Shown here piece by piece: positions 3,851 to 56,444 of a DNA stretch of 64,000 nucleotides. The stretch's first letter is position 1. Every line of letters begins with the position of its first letter. A model generated the notes under the pieces. It did no database searches, was not told where the DNA came from, and was given only the letters and a program-made list of their open reading frames with translations. Location: assembly GCF_036248255.1 (NCBI RefSeq), contig NZ_CP109178.1, forward strand, positions 310,001 through 374,000, in the 5' to 3' direction. The stretch comes from Streptomyces sp. NBC_01717 (GTDB lineage: Bacteria > Actinomycetota > Actinomycetes > Streptomycetales > Streptomycetaceae). The position numbers and the translations under genes are program-made.

Positions 3851-4462
3851 ATGAAGCTGGTTGTGCAGGAGTTCCTGACGCTCGACGGTGTCTCCCAGGG
3901 GCCGGGGTCCCCGGACGAGGACACCAGCGACGGGTTCACGCGGGGTGGCTGGTTCGTGCCACACCTGGACGAGGAGTTCGACCGGCTCGTCGGCACCTGG
4001 CTCGGCCAGGCTGACGCACTTCTGTTCGGCCGCCGTACGTACCAGAACTTCGCCCGGGACTGGCCGAAGATGACCGACCATCCCTTCGCCGGCATCTTGA
4101 ACGGCCTGCCGAAGTACGTGGCCTCCCGCAGCCTGACCAAGGCGGAGTGGAACCCGACCACGATCCTGTCGGACGACATCCCCGCCCACGTCGCCGAACT
4201 GAAGCGGCGGCCCGGCCGGGAACTGCAGATGCACGGCAGCGCCGAGCTGGCCCAGTCCCTGCTGGCCGCCGGGCTGATCGACACATTGCGGCTCGTCATC
4301 GCCCCGGTCGTGGTGGGCCAGGGCCGACGCCTGTTCCCGGACGGCGGAGCACCGGCCGGCCTGCGGCTCGTCAGTCATGTGACGACACCGGGCGGCCTCT
4401 CGGTGCACACCTTCGAATCGACGGGGCTTCCGGAGTACGGGACCTACGGGGCCGACGCGTAG
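3851..4462 (+). CDS. dihydrofolate reductase-family protein (RibD C-terminal-like)
   Basis: A 203-residue single-domain protein of the RibD_C/DHFR superfamily. It starts MKLVVQEFLTLDGVSQG, the usual first strand and loop, and ends with the family signature GLIDTLRLVIAPVVVGQGRRLF. The middle HGSAELAQSLLAAG region is the NADP-binding segment. Members are stand-alone NADPH-dependent reductases of mostly unknown substrate. The open frame extends further upstream, but that part has no family similarity. The ATG at 3851 fits the conserved N-terminus. Monocistronic. Confidence 0.85.
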   Translation: MKLVVQEFLTLDGVSQGPGSPDEDTSDGFTRGGWFVPHLDEEFDRLVGTWLGQADALLFGRRTYQNFARDWPKMTDHPFAGILNGLPKYVASRSLTKAEWNPTTILSDDIPAHVAELKRRPGRELQMHGSAELAQSLLAAGLIDTLRLVIAPVVVGQGRRLFPDGGAPAGLRLVSHVTTPGGLSVHTFESTGLPEYGTYGADA

Positions 4463-4680
4463 GCCCCTGGTGCCGGATCGGCACCGACGGACCTGATCGC
4501 CGGACGAACTCCCGTACCTCGACCGGCGATCACGAATGATCCCATGTACGCGTTCCGCAAAACGTGACGGGTCCAGGCCACGGGCACCGCACGCGCTCTT
4601 GTTGGCGTGTTCATGACCTGGGAGCCTCTCTTCGCGTCGGCCTGCCGCCCGAGTGGGCCCCATCGACACGAGGAGTGTGC

Positions 4681-5502
4681 ATGCACCCCCACTCTGCCCA
4701 CCGCCCGGCGCTCATCGCCGCGATCGCCGCCGCCCTTGCGGGGCTGCTCATGGCGCTGACCCCCAATCCCGCCGAGGCCTGGGGCTACGGCGTCAACCGG
4801 ATCCAAAGTGCCGCCGAGGACAGCCACGCCCAGACCGGGATGGGCCCTGGGTGGGTGCTGCTGAGCTACAAGGCCAACGGCCCGATGGTCGGCTACCTGT
4901 TCGGCCAGGACTTCGCCTTCGCCGACGGCAGCGTCAAGCCCGGCCCCGACCACATGGACATCCGCGACACCGGCGACGCCACCGCCGGCAACACCGAGGG
5001 CATCGACCGCTGGCCCTGGGGCTATGCGGGCGGCAGCTTCGATGGCTGCGCCTACGCGTACGGCACCAGCAAATTCGCCTTCGAGCACGGCGGCTTCACG
5101 TCCGGCAGCTGCGCCGGCGGGCCGAACGTCATCGGCTCCAGCAACGCCGACGGCAGGCCCGACCAGCTGAACTGGTGGCATTCCGAGAACGTGTTCTGCA
5201 CGGACACAGCCGCCGATGCACTGTGTAGTCCGTGGGGCGTGTGGAGCGAGAACAAGGGCGGCGGCCTGAAGGTCACCTCCTCCATCACCTCCTGCACCGT
5301 CTACGGCAACATCGGCGCCGCCGCGGCCTACGGCTCCGGCGCGGCGGTGCCCGCGCACCCGCTCGGCACCGTGCCGCCCGGCCAGCAGGTAGACGTGCGC
5401 TATGTCGCCAAGAGCCGTCAGTGGGTGATGGCGAAATGGAACGGCCAACGCCTGGCGGGCGGCATCGCCTGGGCGTTCTTCCCCCGCAACTGCCTGGCCT
5501 GA
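4681..5502 (+). CDS. secreted protein of unknown function
   Basis: A 273-residue protein with a clear Sec signal peptide: a short polar start, a hydrophobic core LIAAIAAALAGLLMALT and an AEA-type cleavage site near residue 31. GAGGAG lies 5 nt before the ATG at 4681. The mature part is rich in Gly, Trp and Asn, contains six cysteines that could form disulfides, and ends with a basic/aromatic segment around QQVDVRYVAKSRQWVMAKW that resembles a small SH3-like beta fold. No catalytic motif is recognised. It faces the GNAT gene tail to tail across a hairpin. Confidence 0.7.
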   Translation: MHPHSAHRPALIAAIAAALAGLLMALTPNPAEAWGYGVNRIQSAAEDSHAQTGMGPGWVLLSYKANGPMVGYLFGQDFAFADGSVKPGPDHMDIRDTGDATAGNTEGIDRWPWGYAGGSFDGCAYAYGTSKFAFEHGGFTSGSCAGGPNVIGSSNADGRPDQLNWWHSENVFCTDTAADALCSPWGVWSENKGGGLKVTSSITSCTVYGNIGAAAAYGSGAAVPAHPLGTVPPGQQVDVRYVAKSRQWVMAKWNGQRLAGGIAWAFFPRNCLA

Positions 5503-5573
5503 ACGGGTGGCAGGCGGCTCCACGCCGCGGTTCGTGGGATGGAGGGGCGTGACTCGATCAACCATCGTGGTTC

Positions 5574-5598
5574 TGGCTCAACTTGCTTGGTTGAGCCA
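5574..5598. terminator. bidirectional hairpin between convergent genes
   Basis: A perfect 9-bp stem (tggctcaac / gttgagcca) with a 7-nt loop at 5583-5589 sits between the plus-strand secreted protein (ends 5502) and the minus-strand GNAT (ends 5667). Position and symmetry suit a shared terminator. There is no strong T tract. Confidence 0.55.
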
Positions 5599-5666
5599 CT
5601 CCCCCCGTGCCAACTGAGATTGAGTGGAGCCGTGTGTACCAGGCGACGAGGGCTCGAGCCAAGGCG

Positions 5667-6062
5667 TCAGAGGGCGATCAGCCCGGCCGGCGTCTCCCTG
5701 AAGCCACAGGCATCGAAATAGAACGAACGCACATGTTCCTCGAAGTCGACGTGAAGCCACTCGCACTTCGCCGCACGGGCTTCCTTGGCCGCGACTGCGA
5801 CAAGCGCGGCGCCGACCCCCCGCGAACGGCGATGCCGGGCGACCACCGTATCCAGGATGAAGGCGTGAGCTCCGCCGTCCCAGGCAACGTTGACGAAGCC
5901 GCTCAGAGCGCCGTCTTCCCACGCGCAGACCCAGCCGAGGCTGTGGCGTTCAAGTCGTGCTCGCCAGTCGGTCTGGACGACCGGGGTGCCGAAGCCGTCG
6001 GCGTGCAGCGCGTTGAGGGGCGCATTGTCGAAGTCGCCCCGCCACTCGTACTTGATCGTCAC
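5667..6062 (-). CDS. GNAT-family N-acetyltransferase
   Basis: A compact 131-residue GNAT. The acetyl-CoA loop is visible as RHRRSRGVGAALV (residues 78-90), the R-x-x-G-x-G/A motif. The final strand and helix HVDFEEHVRSFYFDACGFRETPAG carry the usual Tyr/Phe-Phe-rich C-terminal signature. The N-terminal strand-helix unit (residues 1-60) is short but complete. It is monocistronic, and the divergent lipoprotein gene starts about 100 bp away at 6159. The substrate is unknown. Confidence 0.85.
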   Translation of the reverse strand: MTIKYEWRGDFDNAPLNALHADGFGTPVVQTDWRARLERHSLGWVCAWEDGALSGFVNVAWDGGAHAFILDTVVARHRRSRGVGAALVAVAAKEARAAKCEWLHVDFEEHVRSFYFDACGFRETPAGLIAL

Positions 6063-9476: not shown

Positions 9477-9517
9477 CGTACGCGGTCGATCGGCTGCCCG
9501 CTGCCGCGAAAGGCTTA

Positions 9518-9616
9518 CGACCTTGGGATGGCGATCGGTGGGGTGCGCTCGGCCCATGACGTGAGATGGGCGGCACGGGTTGGGTGAGTTGTGGAGAGTG
9601 CATCGCCGAGCAGTTC
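9518..9616 (+). mobile_element. remnant of an IS5-family element related to the one at 54.8 kb
   Basis: Position 9518 starts cgaccttgg, preceded by TTA, like the left end cggccttgg of the complete element at 54790. Further in, 9546-9586 matches it closely around the shared cgggttgggtgagttgtg. The remnant then jumps to gcatcgccgagcagttccg (9598-9616), identical to a piece inside the transposase gene (55469-55487). The intervening coding region is deleted and no right end was found. The rest of 9477-9832 shows nothing else. Confidence 0.65.
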
Positions 9617-9832
9617 CGCCACTGCACGGCACCGCGCGCAGATACCGGTACTTCCTACCGAAGCGGGCCGAGCAGCCCATCAGGAAACGGACCTTTCCGC
9701 CGGCCCGTCACGGTCCCCGCCATGTTCTGGGCCACCACAGCCACCGTTTGCCGTCGCAGCCCCGGGTGCCGGCACAACGCCCGCCGTCCCCCGGGCCGTT
9801 GCGCGCTCGGAAGACGGCGGGGGCCGCTGACG

Positions 9833-25421: not shown

Positions 25422-27551
25422 ATGACCGCACGCATGACCTTGCGGCAGCACCGGCTGCTACGCATGGTGCTGGCGGTGCTGCTGACGCTCCTCTCCGTAC
25501 AGTTGCTGGGCGCTGAGCGCGCCCGGGCCGAAACAGTCACCGACGGGAACTACTACTCCAGCAGCCCACCCACGTCGGGGTGCCTGGACACGGTCGGAAA
25601 CCGTCTGGTCGCCTTCCAGGACAGCAAGCTCTTCAACGGCAACACCGCCGACTGCGTCGGATGGGAGGGTTCCTCGAGCGCGCCCAAGAGCGTGACCGTT
25701 GTCTTCGACCTGCTGTACGACCGCCCGCTCAGCAGCATCTCGATCACGAGTACGGCGAAGAACACATTCTGGGGCTTCGACGAGATCGAGATCACCTATC
25801 GGCCCGAAGCGGGCACCGCCTACCGCGTCGCGCACAGCGAAGCCTGGGACCGCAGCCGGCTGGACTACCAGCGCACGGTCGCGATGAACAACGCGCAGGC
25901 CCGGTTCGTGCGCATCAAGCTGACGCGCGTCAACCAGTACCTGCACTTCCCGCTCTCCGAGGTCACCTTCACCGTCGGCAGCGGCACCGTCGACCCGACT
26001 CCGGACCCGTACACCCAGGAGGAGATGGATGCGGAGGTATCCGTCCCCACCCGGCTGGTCGACGTCCACGGCCAGTACCTCTACGGGACCTGGTCCGGCA
26101 AGCTGACCTCTGACCAGCAGCTGCAGCAGGACGCCACGGACGAGGCCGCGGCGCTGGCCGGCGTCACGCTGGACACGACCACGTACGACCAGTACGGCGG
26201 CGTGAAGGCGCTGGGCAGAAGTACCACCCACACCGGCTTCTTCCGTCTGGAGAAGGACGTCCAGGGCAAGTGGTGGTTCATCACCCCCGACGACTACAAG
26301 TTCATCCTCAAGGGAGTCGACTCCACCTCGGCCACCGACTGGGGCTACGCCACGGTTGTGAAGGACACCGAAGGCGACCCGCTCGGGAAGTTCTCTGCCC
26401 TGCCCGACGAGGCAACCTACGCCGCTGCTTACAGCAGTGACCGCACGGAGATGAGCTTCGTCAAGGCAAACCTGATGCGCAAGTACGGCGTCACGGGCTG
26501 GGAGACCCCATGGCGCGACATCACCAAGAAGCGCCTGATCAAGTGGGGCTTCAACGCGCAGTCCAAGTGGTCCCGCGACGGGGGCCTCCAGATGCCCTGG
26601 ATCGGCCAGATCACGGCGCCGGCCAATGTGAAGCGCATCACCCCGTACGCCATCGACCCGTTCGACCCGGCATTCGCCACGGAGCTCGACAAGCAGCTGA
26701 GTCCGACAACCAGCATCGTCCGGACGAACGTCAACAGTCCCTGGCTGATCGGCTACTTCTTCGACAACGAACGGGGCTGGGACGACGACGTCATGACCGC
26801 GATACTGAAAGACACTCTCGGCCGGTATCCGGCCAAGTCAGCCTTCGTCGCCTACATGATCGACACCTACGGCCTGACGGAGACCAACAACAAGCTGGGG
26901 ACCCCGGGCGCCACACAACACGACCTGGAGACCTGGAACCTCTCGGAAAAAGTTCCCAGTGACAGCGCGCTGCGCACCGAGTTCATCGGCGAGGCTTCGA
27001 AGGCCTACTACTCGACCGTCCAGGCGGCCATCAGCAAGTACGACGACAACCACCTGTTCCTCGGCTCCGCCCTGGTGCCGGGCTGGCGTTCCAGCCTGGC
27101 GTGGGAGGTCTGCGGGCGCGAGTACGTGGACGCGATCTCCCTCGACGTCTACCGCAACAGCGCGGACTACCTGGACACGTACGAACCGTACGACACGCCT
27201 GTGCTGAACCTGGAGCACTCGTTCAACGTCCACGGCCGGGGCCTGCGCAGCATCAACGGCTCCGTCCGCGCCGACGACATCGCCGACCGCGGCACCATGC
27301 ACCAGCAGTTCAGCTGGGCACAGGCCGAGAGCCCGGTCTTCGTGGGGTCCGGCTGGTTCAGCTACTACGACCAGGCCATCACCGGTCGCGCGGCCGACGG
27401 CGAGAACTTCAACTTCGGCCTGGTCAACCAGCAGGACCAGCCCTACACCGCGATGACCGACGTCATGGCGCAGACCCACCAGCAGCTGGAACAGCGACAC
27501 GATGATGCGCCCCTCCCCATCACCGGCACCCAGTCCGTGTGCCCGGACTGA
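25422..27551 (+). CDS. secreted agarase-like clan GH-A hydrolase with discoidin-like domain
   Basis: A 709-residue exported enzyme. A Sec signal peptide (RMVLAVLLTLLSVQLLG core, cleavage near residue 36) is followed by a discoidin/CBM32-like beta domain (about 40-185). The TIM-barrel part (about 215-690) starts GGVKALGRSTTHTGFFRLE and WWFITPDDYKFILKGVDS, the pattern of GH50-type agarases. The acid/base is probably Glu450 in GYFFDNERGW and the nucleophile Glu598 in PVLNLEHSFNVHGRG. It is a divergent member and could cut another galactan-like polymer. It starts 4 nt after the MalG-like gene and has a paralogue immediately downstream. Confidence 0.72.
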   Translation: MTARMTLRQHRLLRMVLAVLLTLLSVQLLGAERARAETVTDGNYYSSSPPTSGCLDTVGNRLVAFQDSKLFNGNTADCVGWEGSSSAPKSVTVVFDLLYDRPLSSISITSTAKNTFWGFDEIEITYRPEAGTAYRVAHSEAWDRSRLDYQRTVAMNNAQARFVRIKLTRVNQYLHFPLSEVTFTVGSGTVDPTPDPYTQEEMDAEVSVPTRLVDVHGQYLYGTWSGKLTSDQQLQQDATDEAAALAGVTLDTTTYDQYGGVKALGRSTTHTGFFRLEKDVQGKWWFITPDDYKFILKGVDSTSATDWGYATVVKDTEGDPLGKFSALPDEATYAAAYSSDRTEMSFVKANLMRKYGVTGWETPWRDITKKRLIKWGFNAQSKWSRDGGLQMPWIGQITAPANVKRITPYAIDPFDPAFATELDKQLSPTTSIVRTNVNSPWLIGYFFDNERGWDDDVMTAILKDTLGRYPAKSAFVAYMIDTYGLTETNNKLGTPGATQHDLETWNLSEKVPSDSALRTEFIGEASKAYYSTVQAAISKYDDNHLFLGSALVPGWRSSLAWEVCGREYVDAISLDVYRNSADYLDTYEPYDTPVLNLEHSFNVHGRGLRSINGSVRADDIADRGTMHQQFSWAQAESPVFVGSGWFSYYDQAITGRAADGENFNFGLVNQQDQPYTAMTDVMAQTHQQLEQRHDDAPLPITGTQSVCPD

Positions 27552-53823: not shown

Positions 53824-53939
53824 TCATGCCCTCGGCGCGATCGCGGGTCTGCACCCCTGACCGAACTGGGAGACCAGAGACAGGCCGCGACCGCCCTCAC
53901 CGCGTAGTCCGAGCACAGCTGAGACGGGGGCGGGTATTA
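53824..53939 (-). pseudogene. 3' part of the HATPase gene interrupted by the transposon
   Basis: Joined directly to the right-flank part (see 55901-56020), the minus strand reads DGSNTRPRLSCARTTR, then after a frameshift EGGRGLSLVSQFGQ, ending at a TGA at 53826. This is the final motif of SpoIIE-type HATPases (DGSNTxPRLRRARTTDEGGRGL). The frameshift shows the gene was already decaying. Confidence 0.7.
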
Positions 53940-54185
53940 CGGTCTCGGGGGAAATTGAGCTTCGGGCGTGCTGGCCTGGCAGCTCGGCTGGTGGGTGATC
54001 AGCGGGCGGTATCGCGGACGAGGGCCAGTTCGGTGCTTGTGCGGCGGTGGGTGGCCCGCTGCGCGGATCGGTCGGAGACGAGTGAGGCGATCGCGAGATG
54101 AGTCTCAGCATAGGTATCGCGGCGTCCGTACAGCCCTTCTCATGTCACGGCCCGAACGGGACGATCACGATGTCCGCCAAGGCCG
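53940..54185 (-). mobile_element. internally deleted IS copy, left end of the composite transposon
   Basis: Positions 53940-54128 are the reverse complement of 55710-55898, with no difference seen. Positions 54136-54185 match the reverse complement of 54790-54839 at 48 of 50 positions. Almost all of the transposase gene is missing between them, so it depends on the right copy's transposase. Confidence 0.85.
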
Positions 54186-54229
54186 TAAAGCGGTGGACAG
54201 CTCTCCGGCGCTGGGCGACCATCTCCGCG

Positions 54230-54784
54230 ATGAATAGCGAACCTGTCCCCATTCCCATCCCCAATCGTGTCCGCTTCGTCGAGCTCAACGCAAAGGCGCT
54301 GCGGGCTCTTGCCGACGGTGACCTCGCTGGCGGCAGTGCCGAGGCCGGGGTCGACCTTGACGAACACTTCGTCTGCGACCGGGCCCGCTGGATCTTCGGC
54401 CATCGCGCTGACCAGCTCGCCGAGGACCCGTCTGCCGCGCCCTGGATCACGCGGGCCGTGGTGTCCGAGCCGGACGGGGCCGTCGTCGGCGACGCCGGGT
54501 TCCACGGGCCGCCGGATGAGGCTGGCATGGTCGAGGTCGGCTACACCGTCGTGCCCGGGTACCGCCGCCAGGGCTATGCCCGCGCCATACTGACGGCGTT
54601 GCTTACCAGGGCCGCCGCCGAACCCGGTGTCAGGACCGTGCGAGCTCGTATCGGATCCGACAACAGCGCCTCCTTGGCAACCATCGCGGGCTTCGGATTC
54701 ACGCGCGTCGGCGAGCAGGGGAACGAGCGCGACGGGCTCACGGTCGTCTTCGAGGTCCCGGCAGGCGCGCTTCAGGCCGAGTAG
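54230..54784 (+). CDS. GNAT-family N-acetyltransferase, cargo of the transposon
   Basis: A 184-residue acetyltransferase. The acetyl-CoA loop VVPGYRRQGYARAILTALLTRA (residues 101-122) with R-R-Q-G-Y-A and the C-terminal DNSASLATIAGFGFTRVGEQ element are typical of the family. It starts at ATG 54230, chosen because it gives the normal N-terminus VRFVELNAKALRALADGDLA; no convincing ribosome binding site is visible. It is the only gene between the two IS copies, 5 bp before the right copy begins. The substrate is unknown, but its cargo position suggests a mobile, possibly protective trait. Confidence 0.85.
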   Translation: MNSEPVPIPIPNRVRFVELNAKALRALADGDLAGGSAEAGVDLDEHFVCDRARWIFGHRADQLAEDPSAAPWITRAVVSEPDGAVVGDAGFHGPPDEAGMVEVGYTVVPGYRRQGYARAILTALLTRAAAEPGVRTVRARIGSDNSASLATIAGFGFTRVGEQGNERDGLTVVFEVPAGALQAE

Positions 54785-54789
54785 TTTTG

Positions 54790-55898
54790 CGGCCTTGGCG
54801 GACATGGTGATCGTTCCGTTCGGGCCGTGACATGAGAAGAGCCGCACGGGTTGGGTGAGTTGTGAAGCTGACCTGGGCACGTGCGGCCTGTTCCCATCCT
54901 GCCCTGACGGGTGTCTCACGCGCACATTTCGGTGAGTTGTTCGCCGGTCTCGCCGGTGCGTGGGAGGCCGCCCGGCAGTCCGCGCTCCGCGAGGCCCGGG
55001 GCGGGAAACGTCGGCGGGCGGAGGGTGCCGGCCGAAAGCCCAAGCTGGTCTTCCTCGATCGGCTGCTGGTCACCCTGGTCCATCTGCGTCATCAGTTGCC
55101 GCACGTGGTGCTCGCCGAGCTCTTCGAGGTGGATCGCTCCACCGTCTCCGCGGCCATCCGGCAGGTCCGCCCGCTGCTGGCGGCCCGTGGTTTCGCCGTG
55201 CCCGACCGGCCGGGCCTGCGGCTGAAGACGCTGGAGGACGTCTTCGCCTATGCCGAGGCGGAGGGCGTTGAGCTGCGGATCGATGGGGTCGAGACCCAGG
55301 TCCGCCGCCCGCAGGCCGGCCGCCCCGGGCGCCGGGCATTCGTTTCCGGAAAACGTAAGCAGAACACCGTCAAGACCACCACGTTCAGCGACGGCCAGGG
55401 CCGCCTGCTGCTGTCCGGCCTGGTCCGCCCAGGCCGGATGCACGACCAGACCGCCCGGCGCACCGAGGGCATCGCCGAGCAGTTCCGTACCCGTCCCGGT
55501 GTGAAGGCGAAGGTCGATTCCGGCTACCTCGGGCTGGCCAAGGAGTTCCCCGGCCAGGTCAGCGCCCCGCCGAAGAAGCCCAAGGACGAGGCGTGCGACG
55601 GTGACAAGCGCGCCTGGCGCGAGACACGGCGGCGGCAGTCCTCGGCGAGGATCTGTGTGGAGCACACCAACGCCGAGCTCCGCCAGTGGGCGCCCTTGCG
55701 CCGATTCACCGGACGCCGCGATACCTATGCTGAGACTCATCTCGCGATCGCCTCACTCGTCTCCGACCGATCCGCGCAGCGGGCCACCCACCGCCGCACA
55801 AGCACCGAACTGGCCCTCGTCCGCGATACCGCCCGCTGATCACCCACCAGCCGAGCTGCCAGGCCAGCACGCCCGAAGCTCAATTTCCCCCGAGACCG
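54790..55898 (+). mobile_element. complete IS5-family insertion sequence
   Basis: 1109 bp with imperfect terminal repeats: left CGGCCTTGGCGGA and right (reverse complement) CGGTCTCGGGGGA, matching at 10 of 13 positions. It encodes one transposase. TTA flanks the composite on the outside. The inner end is not flanked by TTA. Confidence 0.85.
54862..55839 (+). CDS. IS5-family (ISL2-type) transposase
   Basis: A 325-residue transposase. The N-terminal HTH (about residues 75-110) reads LAELFEVDRSTVSAAIRQVRP. The DDE catalytic domain shows the first Asp in LRIDGVETQV, the second in KVDSGYLGLA and the Glu in CVEHTNAELRQW, all intact, so it may be functional. The start at GTG 54862 lies inside the shared left-end sequence cgggttgggtgagttgtg that is also found in the remnant at 9.5 kb. 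The C-terminal end of the gene coincides with the sequence duplicated in the left copy. Confidence 0.92.
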   Translation: MKLTWARAACSHPALTGVSRAHFGELFAGLAGAWEAARQSALREARGGKRRRAEGAGRKPKLVFLDRLLVTLVHLRHQLPHVVLAELFEVDRSTVSAAIRQVRPLLAARGFAVPDRPGLRLKTLEDVFAYAEAEGVELRIDGVETQVRRPQAGRPGRRAFVSGKRKQNTVKTTTFSDGQGRLLLSGLVRPGRMHDQTARRTEGIAEQFRTRPGVKAKVDSGYLGLAKEFPGQVSAPPKKPKDEACDGDKRAWRETRRRQSSARICVEHTNAELRQWAPLRRFTGRRDTYAETHLAIASLVSDRSAQRATHRRTSTELALVRDTAR

Positions 55899-55900
55899 TT

Positions 55901-56020
55901 ACTCCCGTCGAACGCCTCGGACGCCGGTTCGTGGTCCCGGATCGGGCGCAGCCGGACAGGTTCCTTGCCGTACTGGATCGCGCTCGTGATCAGATCGCTC
56001 ACCACTGACTCGGGGCGTTC
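55901..56020 (-). pseudogene. 5' part of the HATPase gene interrupted by the transposon
   Basis: The minus strand reads ERPESVVSDLITSAIQYGKE and PVRLRPIRDHEP, ending EAFDGS exactly at the transposon border. It matches the N-box region of SpoIIE-type ATPases (SELVTNAIRYG...RLIRD). Upstream, 56021-56444, the frame decays and no other gene is recognised. Confidence 0.7.
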
Positions 56021-56444
56021 CTCGGTCGTCTGCCGTACTTGGCCGGCTTCGCGATGCTGCGGTCTTTTCCGACAGCCCGAACCTCTGGACATCCGTCAAC
56101 GGGGCGCGCTGCACAGGTTTTTCCATGTCCTCATGAGCAGTCGACGCCTGCAGGGAGGGACATCGAGGCGCCGCGTCGTGTGCTGTCCTCCCTCTTTGCC
56201 CTGCACCCCGGTGCGCCGCAGGGGGCTCGCGTACACCGGACTGCGAGCCGTCCTCGGACGAGGCCACCGTCGAAGGGCTGAATCTGCGCCTTTGCTGTCC
56301 GTAGCTGCGGCCATGCGTAGGCGGACCATGCCGGTTGAACGGGTCAGGAAATGTCCGACCCCCGGGCCGGCCTGAAGCCTCGCCTCGTACGAAGGCGTTT
56401 GAGGCGCACGGCGGCGGCCCCACCCGAACAGAAGGCGATCAACA

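Follow-up and report, generated by a model that had tools for sequence, protein, structure and literature searches.

A probable composite transposon with a single GNAT gene between inverted copies of one insertion sequence in Streptomyces

The window, the whole 64-kb stretch of DNA that was analyzed, comes from a 10.2-Mb Streptomyces genome in three contigs (G000 C1:310001-374000). It contains a block of 1,959 bp (53940-55898) with TTA on each side, in which a gene for a GNAT N-acetyltransferase lies between two inverted copies of one insertion sequence (IS), and the block interrupts a further reading frame (Table 1). The inverted pair has arms of 198 nt that are 98% complementary (53931-54128 and 55710-55907), and a second inverted pair of 64 nt at 91% was found at 54126-54189 and 54786-54849. 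A scan of the window for the 20-base outer tip, allowing up to three mismatches, gave two occurrences, both without a mismatch, against a mean count of 0.00 over 100 shuffles. The coordinates, length, and reading frame given in the original prediction were correct to the base.

Table 1. Features of the block and of the interrupted frame in the window
Feature	Position	Strand	Remarks
Left target-site copy	53937..53939	.	TTA
Left IS remnant	53940..54185	-	246 bp
Cargo GNAT N-acetyltransferase	54230..54784	+	184 aa; Pfam Acetyltransf_3
Right IS, complete	54790..55898	+	1,109 bp
Transposase	54862..55839	+	325 aa; HTH_Tnp_4 + DDE_Tnp_4; intact frame
Right target-site copy	55899..55901	.	TTA
Target gene remnant, part right of insertion	55902..56092	-	
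Target frame continued left of insertion	53897..53936	-	up to in-frame stop 53897

The outer 189 bp of the left remnant (53940-54128) are identical to the outer end of the right IS. Past 54128 there is a deletion junction, at which about 863 bp are missing, followed by 57 bp of the other IS end; the last base of its inner tip CCG is 54185, after which comes the triplet TAA. As the left remnant holds both ends of the right IS, it represents a second copy, and the view that the left copy is internally deleted and the right one complete was confirmed. The block is therefore non-IS DNA flanked by two copies of one IS, as expected of a composite transposon. The tips of the right IS are imperfectly inverted, the inner CGGCCTTGGCGGACAT mirroring the outer CGGTCTCGGGGGAAAT. 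The triplet preceding the right IS is TTG in the window and TTA in seven related loci (L043, L047, L051, L052, L053, L056, and L066).

The cargo gene ends with its stop codon 5 bases ahead of the right IS. Its product scored 54.3 bits with Pfam Acetyltransf_3 (cut-off 25.4), and the predicted structure (pLDDT 92.4) is that of a plain GNAT, with structural matches that are many and close together. The acetyl-CoA loop reads RRQGYA, and R111, R112, and G114 are invariant in 34 of 34 sequences. An alternative longer frame from 54098 would start within the left remnant; most aligned relatives start at the equivalent of 54230. None of the curated NCBIfam resistance models was passed by the GNAT (BlmB, 19.7 vs 625 bits; ArsN1, 19.7 vs 170 bits), in agreement with the initial description of the cargo as a single GNAT that is not a known resistance gene.

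IS elements of the IS1031-like group make TNA duplications. The transposase of the right IS exceeded the cut-offs of Pfam DDE_Tnp_4 and HTH_Tnp_4 and reached 29.8 bits on the NCBIfam model transpos_IS5_4, under its cut-off of 140, so that the designation IS5-type is likely. Solo relatives, for example L019/L169, start like the right IS, and the solo copies L169 and L038 have TAA on both sides. With a length of about 1.1 kb, these two domains, and such flanks, the IS likely belongs to the IS5 kind and may be akin to the IS1031-like group of the IS5 family, a group named in a figure legend of PMC12730594. The right-flank triplets of 24 related IS copies, some with poorly located tips, were TAA in 15, TTA in 6, and another triplet in 3. 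Equal triplets on both sides were seen in three of the 24 (L169, L038, and L155; L155 belongs to locus L018, which has another cargo), the left tip of many others being degenerate or unlocated.

When the flanks of the block are joined at one copy of TTA, they give EAFDGSNTRPRLSCARTTR in a single frame. Over 52 aa, this joined frame gave gap-free alignments with 12 of 12 loci compared, the identity being 46-50%. At the DNA level, the window's own locus (L118) and 15 others out of 30 aligned in the middle part; those 15 cross the junction at 67-74% identity, with no gap in the displayed stretch for 13 of them and a lone single-base gap in each of the other two, L144 and L147. Judged by these alignments, the target site is colinear with its uninterrupted relatives once the block is omitted. 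The target gene is damaged elsewhere, with an in-frame stop at 53897 right after ARTTR and homology resuming in another frame, so it is a gene that was dead before the insertion or has died since. Its relatives, three of which encode proteins of 586-588 aa, look like what we take to be SpoIIE-type phosphatases with a C-terminal ATPase part. Pfam did not recognize the joined 77-aa fragment at E≤1, and the label "HATPase" consequently derives from the look of these relatives; the earlier statement that the joined flanks restore an HATPase motif in one frame holds for the single homologous frame, and its name follows from the relatives.

An orthologous empty site for the window was not found in 416 distinct genomes (392 of the genus and 61 of relatives, 37 being common to both). 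The best match to the left flank, in G040, is 88% identical and limited to bases 1-255 of a query of 980 bases; it takes in the last part of the AraC-type gene upstream and reaches slightly further, after which the G040 sequence diverges.

A search of 392 genus genomes with the unit gave matches at E≤0.001 in 309, many through the IS part alone; the full-length match was confined to the window's own genome, and partial matches included G349 (bases 126-1965) and G258 (bases 125-1614). Among 355 family genomes 299 matched, and G435 matched over bases 1-1959 at 92%. This G435 sequence is identical to L053 of Actinacidiphila soli, which has a complete unit of 1,953 bp with TAA on both sides, an open transposase aligned over all 325 residues, and the same left-arm deletion junction as the window. 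L056 of S. musisoli (L186 is the same contig) keeps both outer ends, also between TAA and TAA, in 1,574 bp with a broken transposase. Both outer ends were kept in only three distinct units of the loci examined: the window (TTA/TTA), L053, and L056. Other loci, such as L047, L051, L052, L058, L061, and L066, have partial units. The search for the unit, and for the same GNAT between IS copies, that had been suggested at the outset therefore found L053, L056, and partial units, at unrelated sites. Among the flanks of 13 unit loci no common insertion site was detected at E≤1e-8, the left flank of L047 (22 bp) being excluded as too short; the sole similarity was a 137-bp match between the right flank of L017 and the left flank of L066.

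For L053, no empty site was found in 200 genomes, and no listed match of the right-flank type spans the junction. Eight genomes (G434, G455, G458, G488, G497, G505, G522, and G587) match the right flank only, starting 0-2 bases past TAA. The match in G425 crosses the junction position and was rejected as an empty site because it is too short (bases 268-336, 79%, E 4e-6). The flanks of L056 were also joined.

One alternative is that two IS copies inserted independently around a resident GNAT gene and happened to match in TTA, the block never having moved as one. Since this IS lineage mostly targets TAA or TTA, the chance that two independent insertions match in their triplets would be about 0.6, and the TTA match alone is weak evidence; of the precise TTA duplication first proposed, the two triplets stand while their weight as proof does not. 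However, L053 and others, which lie at unrelated sites, share both the left-deletion junction and the GNAT with the window. Omission of the whole block leaves the target frame colinear, which places both outer ends on one target. A resident GNAT would also be expected to retain its own surroundings, but the segment between the tips is common to the relatives that keep both tips. We therefore regard independent insertion as highly improbable. In our preferred reading, the sequence indicates that both outer ends were inserted in a single event, which duplicated the target once for the unit as a whole. The conclusion that the whole unit moved together agreed with the shared junction of L053, the unrelated sites, and the colinear target frame, and the unit has very probably travelled as a whole.

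Close relatives of the GNAT gene were collected by a pattern scan of 84,980 species genomes, which gave 76 loci. IS pieces adjoin the gene in 21 of the 26 loci with at least 80% protein identity; none was seen at the remaining five (L048, L057, L060, L092, and L113), nor at any of the 50 more distant loci (≤73% identity). Of 22 loci, six could be aligned across the left deletion junction: L053, L021, L058, L024, L049, and, weakly, L063 (69%). By eye, a further deletion is seen at the same place in L047, L051, L052, L056, and L061. The triplet beside the inner IS tip before the GNAT is TAA in many loci, and in L053 and L056 the left remnant by itself is also flanked by TAA on both sides, a point against the composite explanation, as is the small number of units with both outer ends.

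The GNAT gene could also have spread by ordinary homologous exchange or on plasmids, with the IS copies as hitch-hikers. The five close loci without an IS piece would fit this, as would the occurrence of the gene on plasmids: in a search of 72,556 plasmid records, 18 matched, three of them in the GNAT part (two from Embleya and one from Streptomyces sp. NBC_01431). The GNAT gene is thus carried on plasmids. Two of these three, H7 and H13, are large, linear, and typed as non-mobilizable, so the records show carriage and not transfer by these plasmids. Against hitch-hiking, the homology of the GNAT-only loci L029, L031, L032, L033, L037, and L039 to the window starts at query positions 165-236 and ends at 840-939, near the IS tips (about 249 and 854), and IS pieces are absent from the 50 distant loci. 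Spread of the gene independently of its IS is thus very unlikely. The difference between 21 of 26 close loci and 0 of 50 distant ones argues instead for one capture, spread, and decay, and in what is probably the simplest history, a single capture and a single founding deletion preceded the movement.

Of 27 loci, 24 have an unbroken GNAT frame that starts with ATG; they comprise L065 (73% identity) and 23 of the 26 loci at ≥80%. The exceptions are L064, whose compared frame contains two stops, and the loci L066 and L092, which lack an in-frame upstream ATG. In 26 sequences (325 pairs; L065 and L092 omitted, the damaged L064 included), the mean dN was 0.135 and the mean dS 0.370, with a median ratio of 0.31. 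The much lower dN points to purifying selection, and repeated transfer together with such selection suggests that the GNAT has a useful substrate.

Composite (compound) transposons such as Tn5 and Tn10 carry their cargo between inverted copies of one IS. The present unit is similar to these in having one functional and one defective IS, in the joint use of the outer ends, and in the target duplication; it differs in that the defective copy is only 246 bp, the IS is of another kind, and the only gene carried is a GNAT not known to act in resistance. A second comparison is with the transporter IS, mentioned in the ISsaga paper (PMC3129680) as IS copies carrying passenger genes. The likeness lies in a single passenger gene and one transposase between inverted ends, and the difference in the left end, which here is a deleted second IS copy, so that a composite now resembles a transporter IS. 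A passenger within a single IS, with no second copy, was rejected as a description because the left arm is the remnant of such a copy. The block could also be read as a unit transposon, in effect a transporter IS, with 189-bp terminal inverted repeats whose left arm is a plain left terminus. The arrangement has been stable since before the split of the window and L053, and no transposase is encoded in the left arm itself, both of which suit that reading; yet the left arm consists of 189 bp of one IS end and 57 bp of the other joined by a deletion, as would be left by an IS copy that was once complete. We consider the unit-transposon reading less likely than not, and it diverges from the composite reading in origin and name more than in the mode of movement.

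Within units, the outer arms are identical in the window (189/189), L053 (189/189), and L047 (168/168), whereas between these three the identity is 90.5-93.7%. Had the arms diverged freely since their common deletion, the probability of no difference in 189 bp at 9.5% would be 6e-9. Identity within units alongside differences of 6-10% between them points to conversion between the long inverted arms, which seems the simplest reading. The arms are not identical in L056 (161/176), L058 (61/66), and two candidate units with other cargo, L018 (127/132) and L020 (98/121). The inner tips match at 58/64 in the window, 59/64 in L053, 59/59 in L043 (cut off), and 54/59 in L058; L054 was left out because its right-hand stretch (28/55) does not correspond to an IS tip. 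The case of L056, whose transposase is broken, raised the idea that identical arms go with an intact transposase; this was dropped since L018 and L020 have open transposases and yet differ in their arms. For ISWpi1 of the IS5 family, PMC3004938 reports recombination and conversion between terminal repeats. In that account, inverted ends are likewise made identical by mutual recombination, the ends being the short ones of a single IS within one bacterial genus; the arms discussed here are 189 bp long, belong to a cargo-bearing unit, and would be subject to conversion on the evidence of species comparison only.

Taken together, the block is very likely a composite transposon formed by one IS, probably of the IS5 kind, with a GNAT cargo, and this explanation includes capture, spread, decay, and arm conversion. 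The transposase would recognize both outer ends, treat the 1,959 bp as one element, and insert it at TWA (TAA or TTA) with a 3-base duplication. The GNAT gene may have been captured once between two IS copies, of which the left one would afterwards have lost its middle. The unit would then have spread in the Streptomycetaceae, perhaps partly on large plasmids; the IS parts often decayed later while the GNAT presumably stayed under purifying selection, and conversion between the inverted repeats would keep the outer arms identical. In the titles and abstract openings of the freely accessible papers searched, no GNAT-carrying IS5-type transposon of Streptomyces was found. These comparisons give good support to the block as a mobile unit, new as a member and ordinary as a kind. 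Its relatives preserve several stages of decay, in which a small gene is captured by an IS, spreads, and is left as a seemingly ordinary gene, in a host family important for antibiotics. They form a natural series in which conversion of the arms and domestication of the cargo could be studied.

Reversed outer arms together with a complete IS also frame a NIPSNAP gene (L020) and a gene for a small membrane protein that reached no Pfam cut-off (L018), and, with an intron-split IS, a gene for a DUF6234 protein (L178). None was accepted as a proven unit: the complete IS of L018 has TAA on both sides even when taken by itself (L155), L020 combines a degenerate inner tip with arms that match at only 98/121, and in L178 the outer triplets differ (TTA and TTG). 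The three were found with the sequence or outer end of the present unit, so their shared orientation is partly ascertainment, and the arm-pair scan scored two candidates per genome, so that pairs may be missed. TAA and TTA are rare inside the genes of the GC-rich genomes considered here. We tentatively raise the rather unlikely idea that in Streptomycetaceae this IS lineage is a carrier of interchangeable single genes, each unit consisting of a short outer end in reverse orientation, a single cargo gene, and a complete IS. Recombination would keep the two arms alike, so that the unit remains mobile and the cargo block is able to flip, and the choice of TAA or TTA would steer insertions away from coding sequence.

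Several minor observations concern related IS copies. Within the transposase of the IS in L178 (G370, 3927-5726) lies a group II intron reverse transcriptase/maturase. The IS at L160 (G149 C6) has the flanks GTCGCTTA and TAAGCGAT; this target is nearly palindromic and at odds with a duplication of 3 bases. In the window, a relic at 9517-9625 shows by eye TTA with the tip CGACCTTGGG and a short stretch of the IS start, and then jumps to an internal transposase segment. L180 (G358 C1:2784-3096) is an outer IS part, 95% identical, about 3 kb from a contig end. A 77%-identical IS in the same genome (L002/L009, G000 C1:546993-548055) has an open transposase aligned over 324 residues. A 69%-identical copy (L005/L006, G000 C1:9307415-9308379 and 25708-26672) sits at mirror positions about 25.7 kb from either end of the contig (9,334,094 bases), so that the contig may end in terminal inverted repeats 25.7 kb or more in length.
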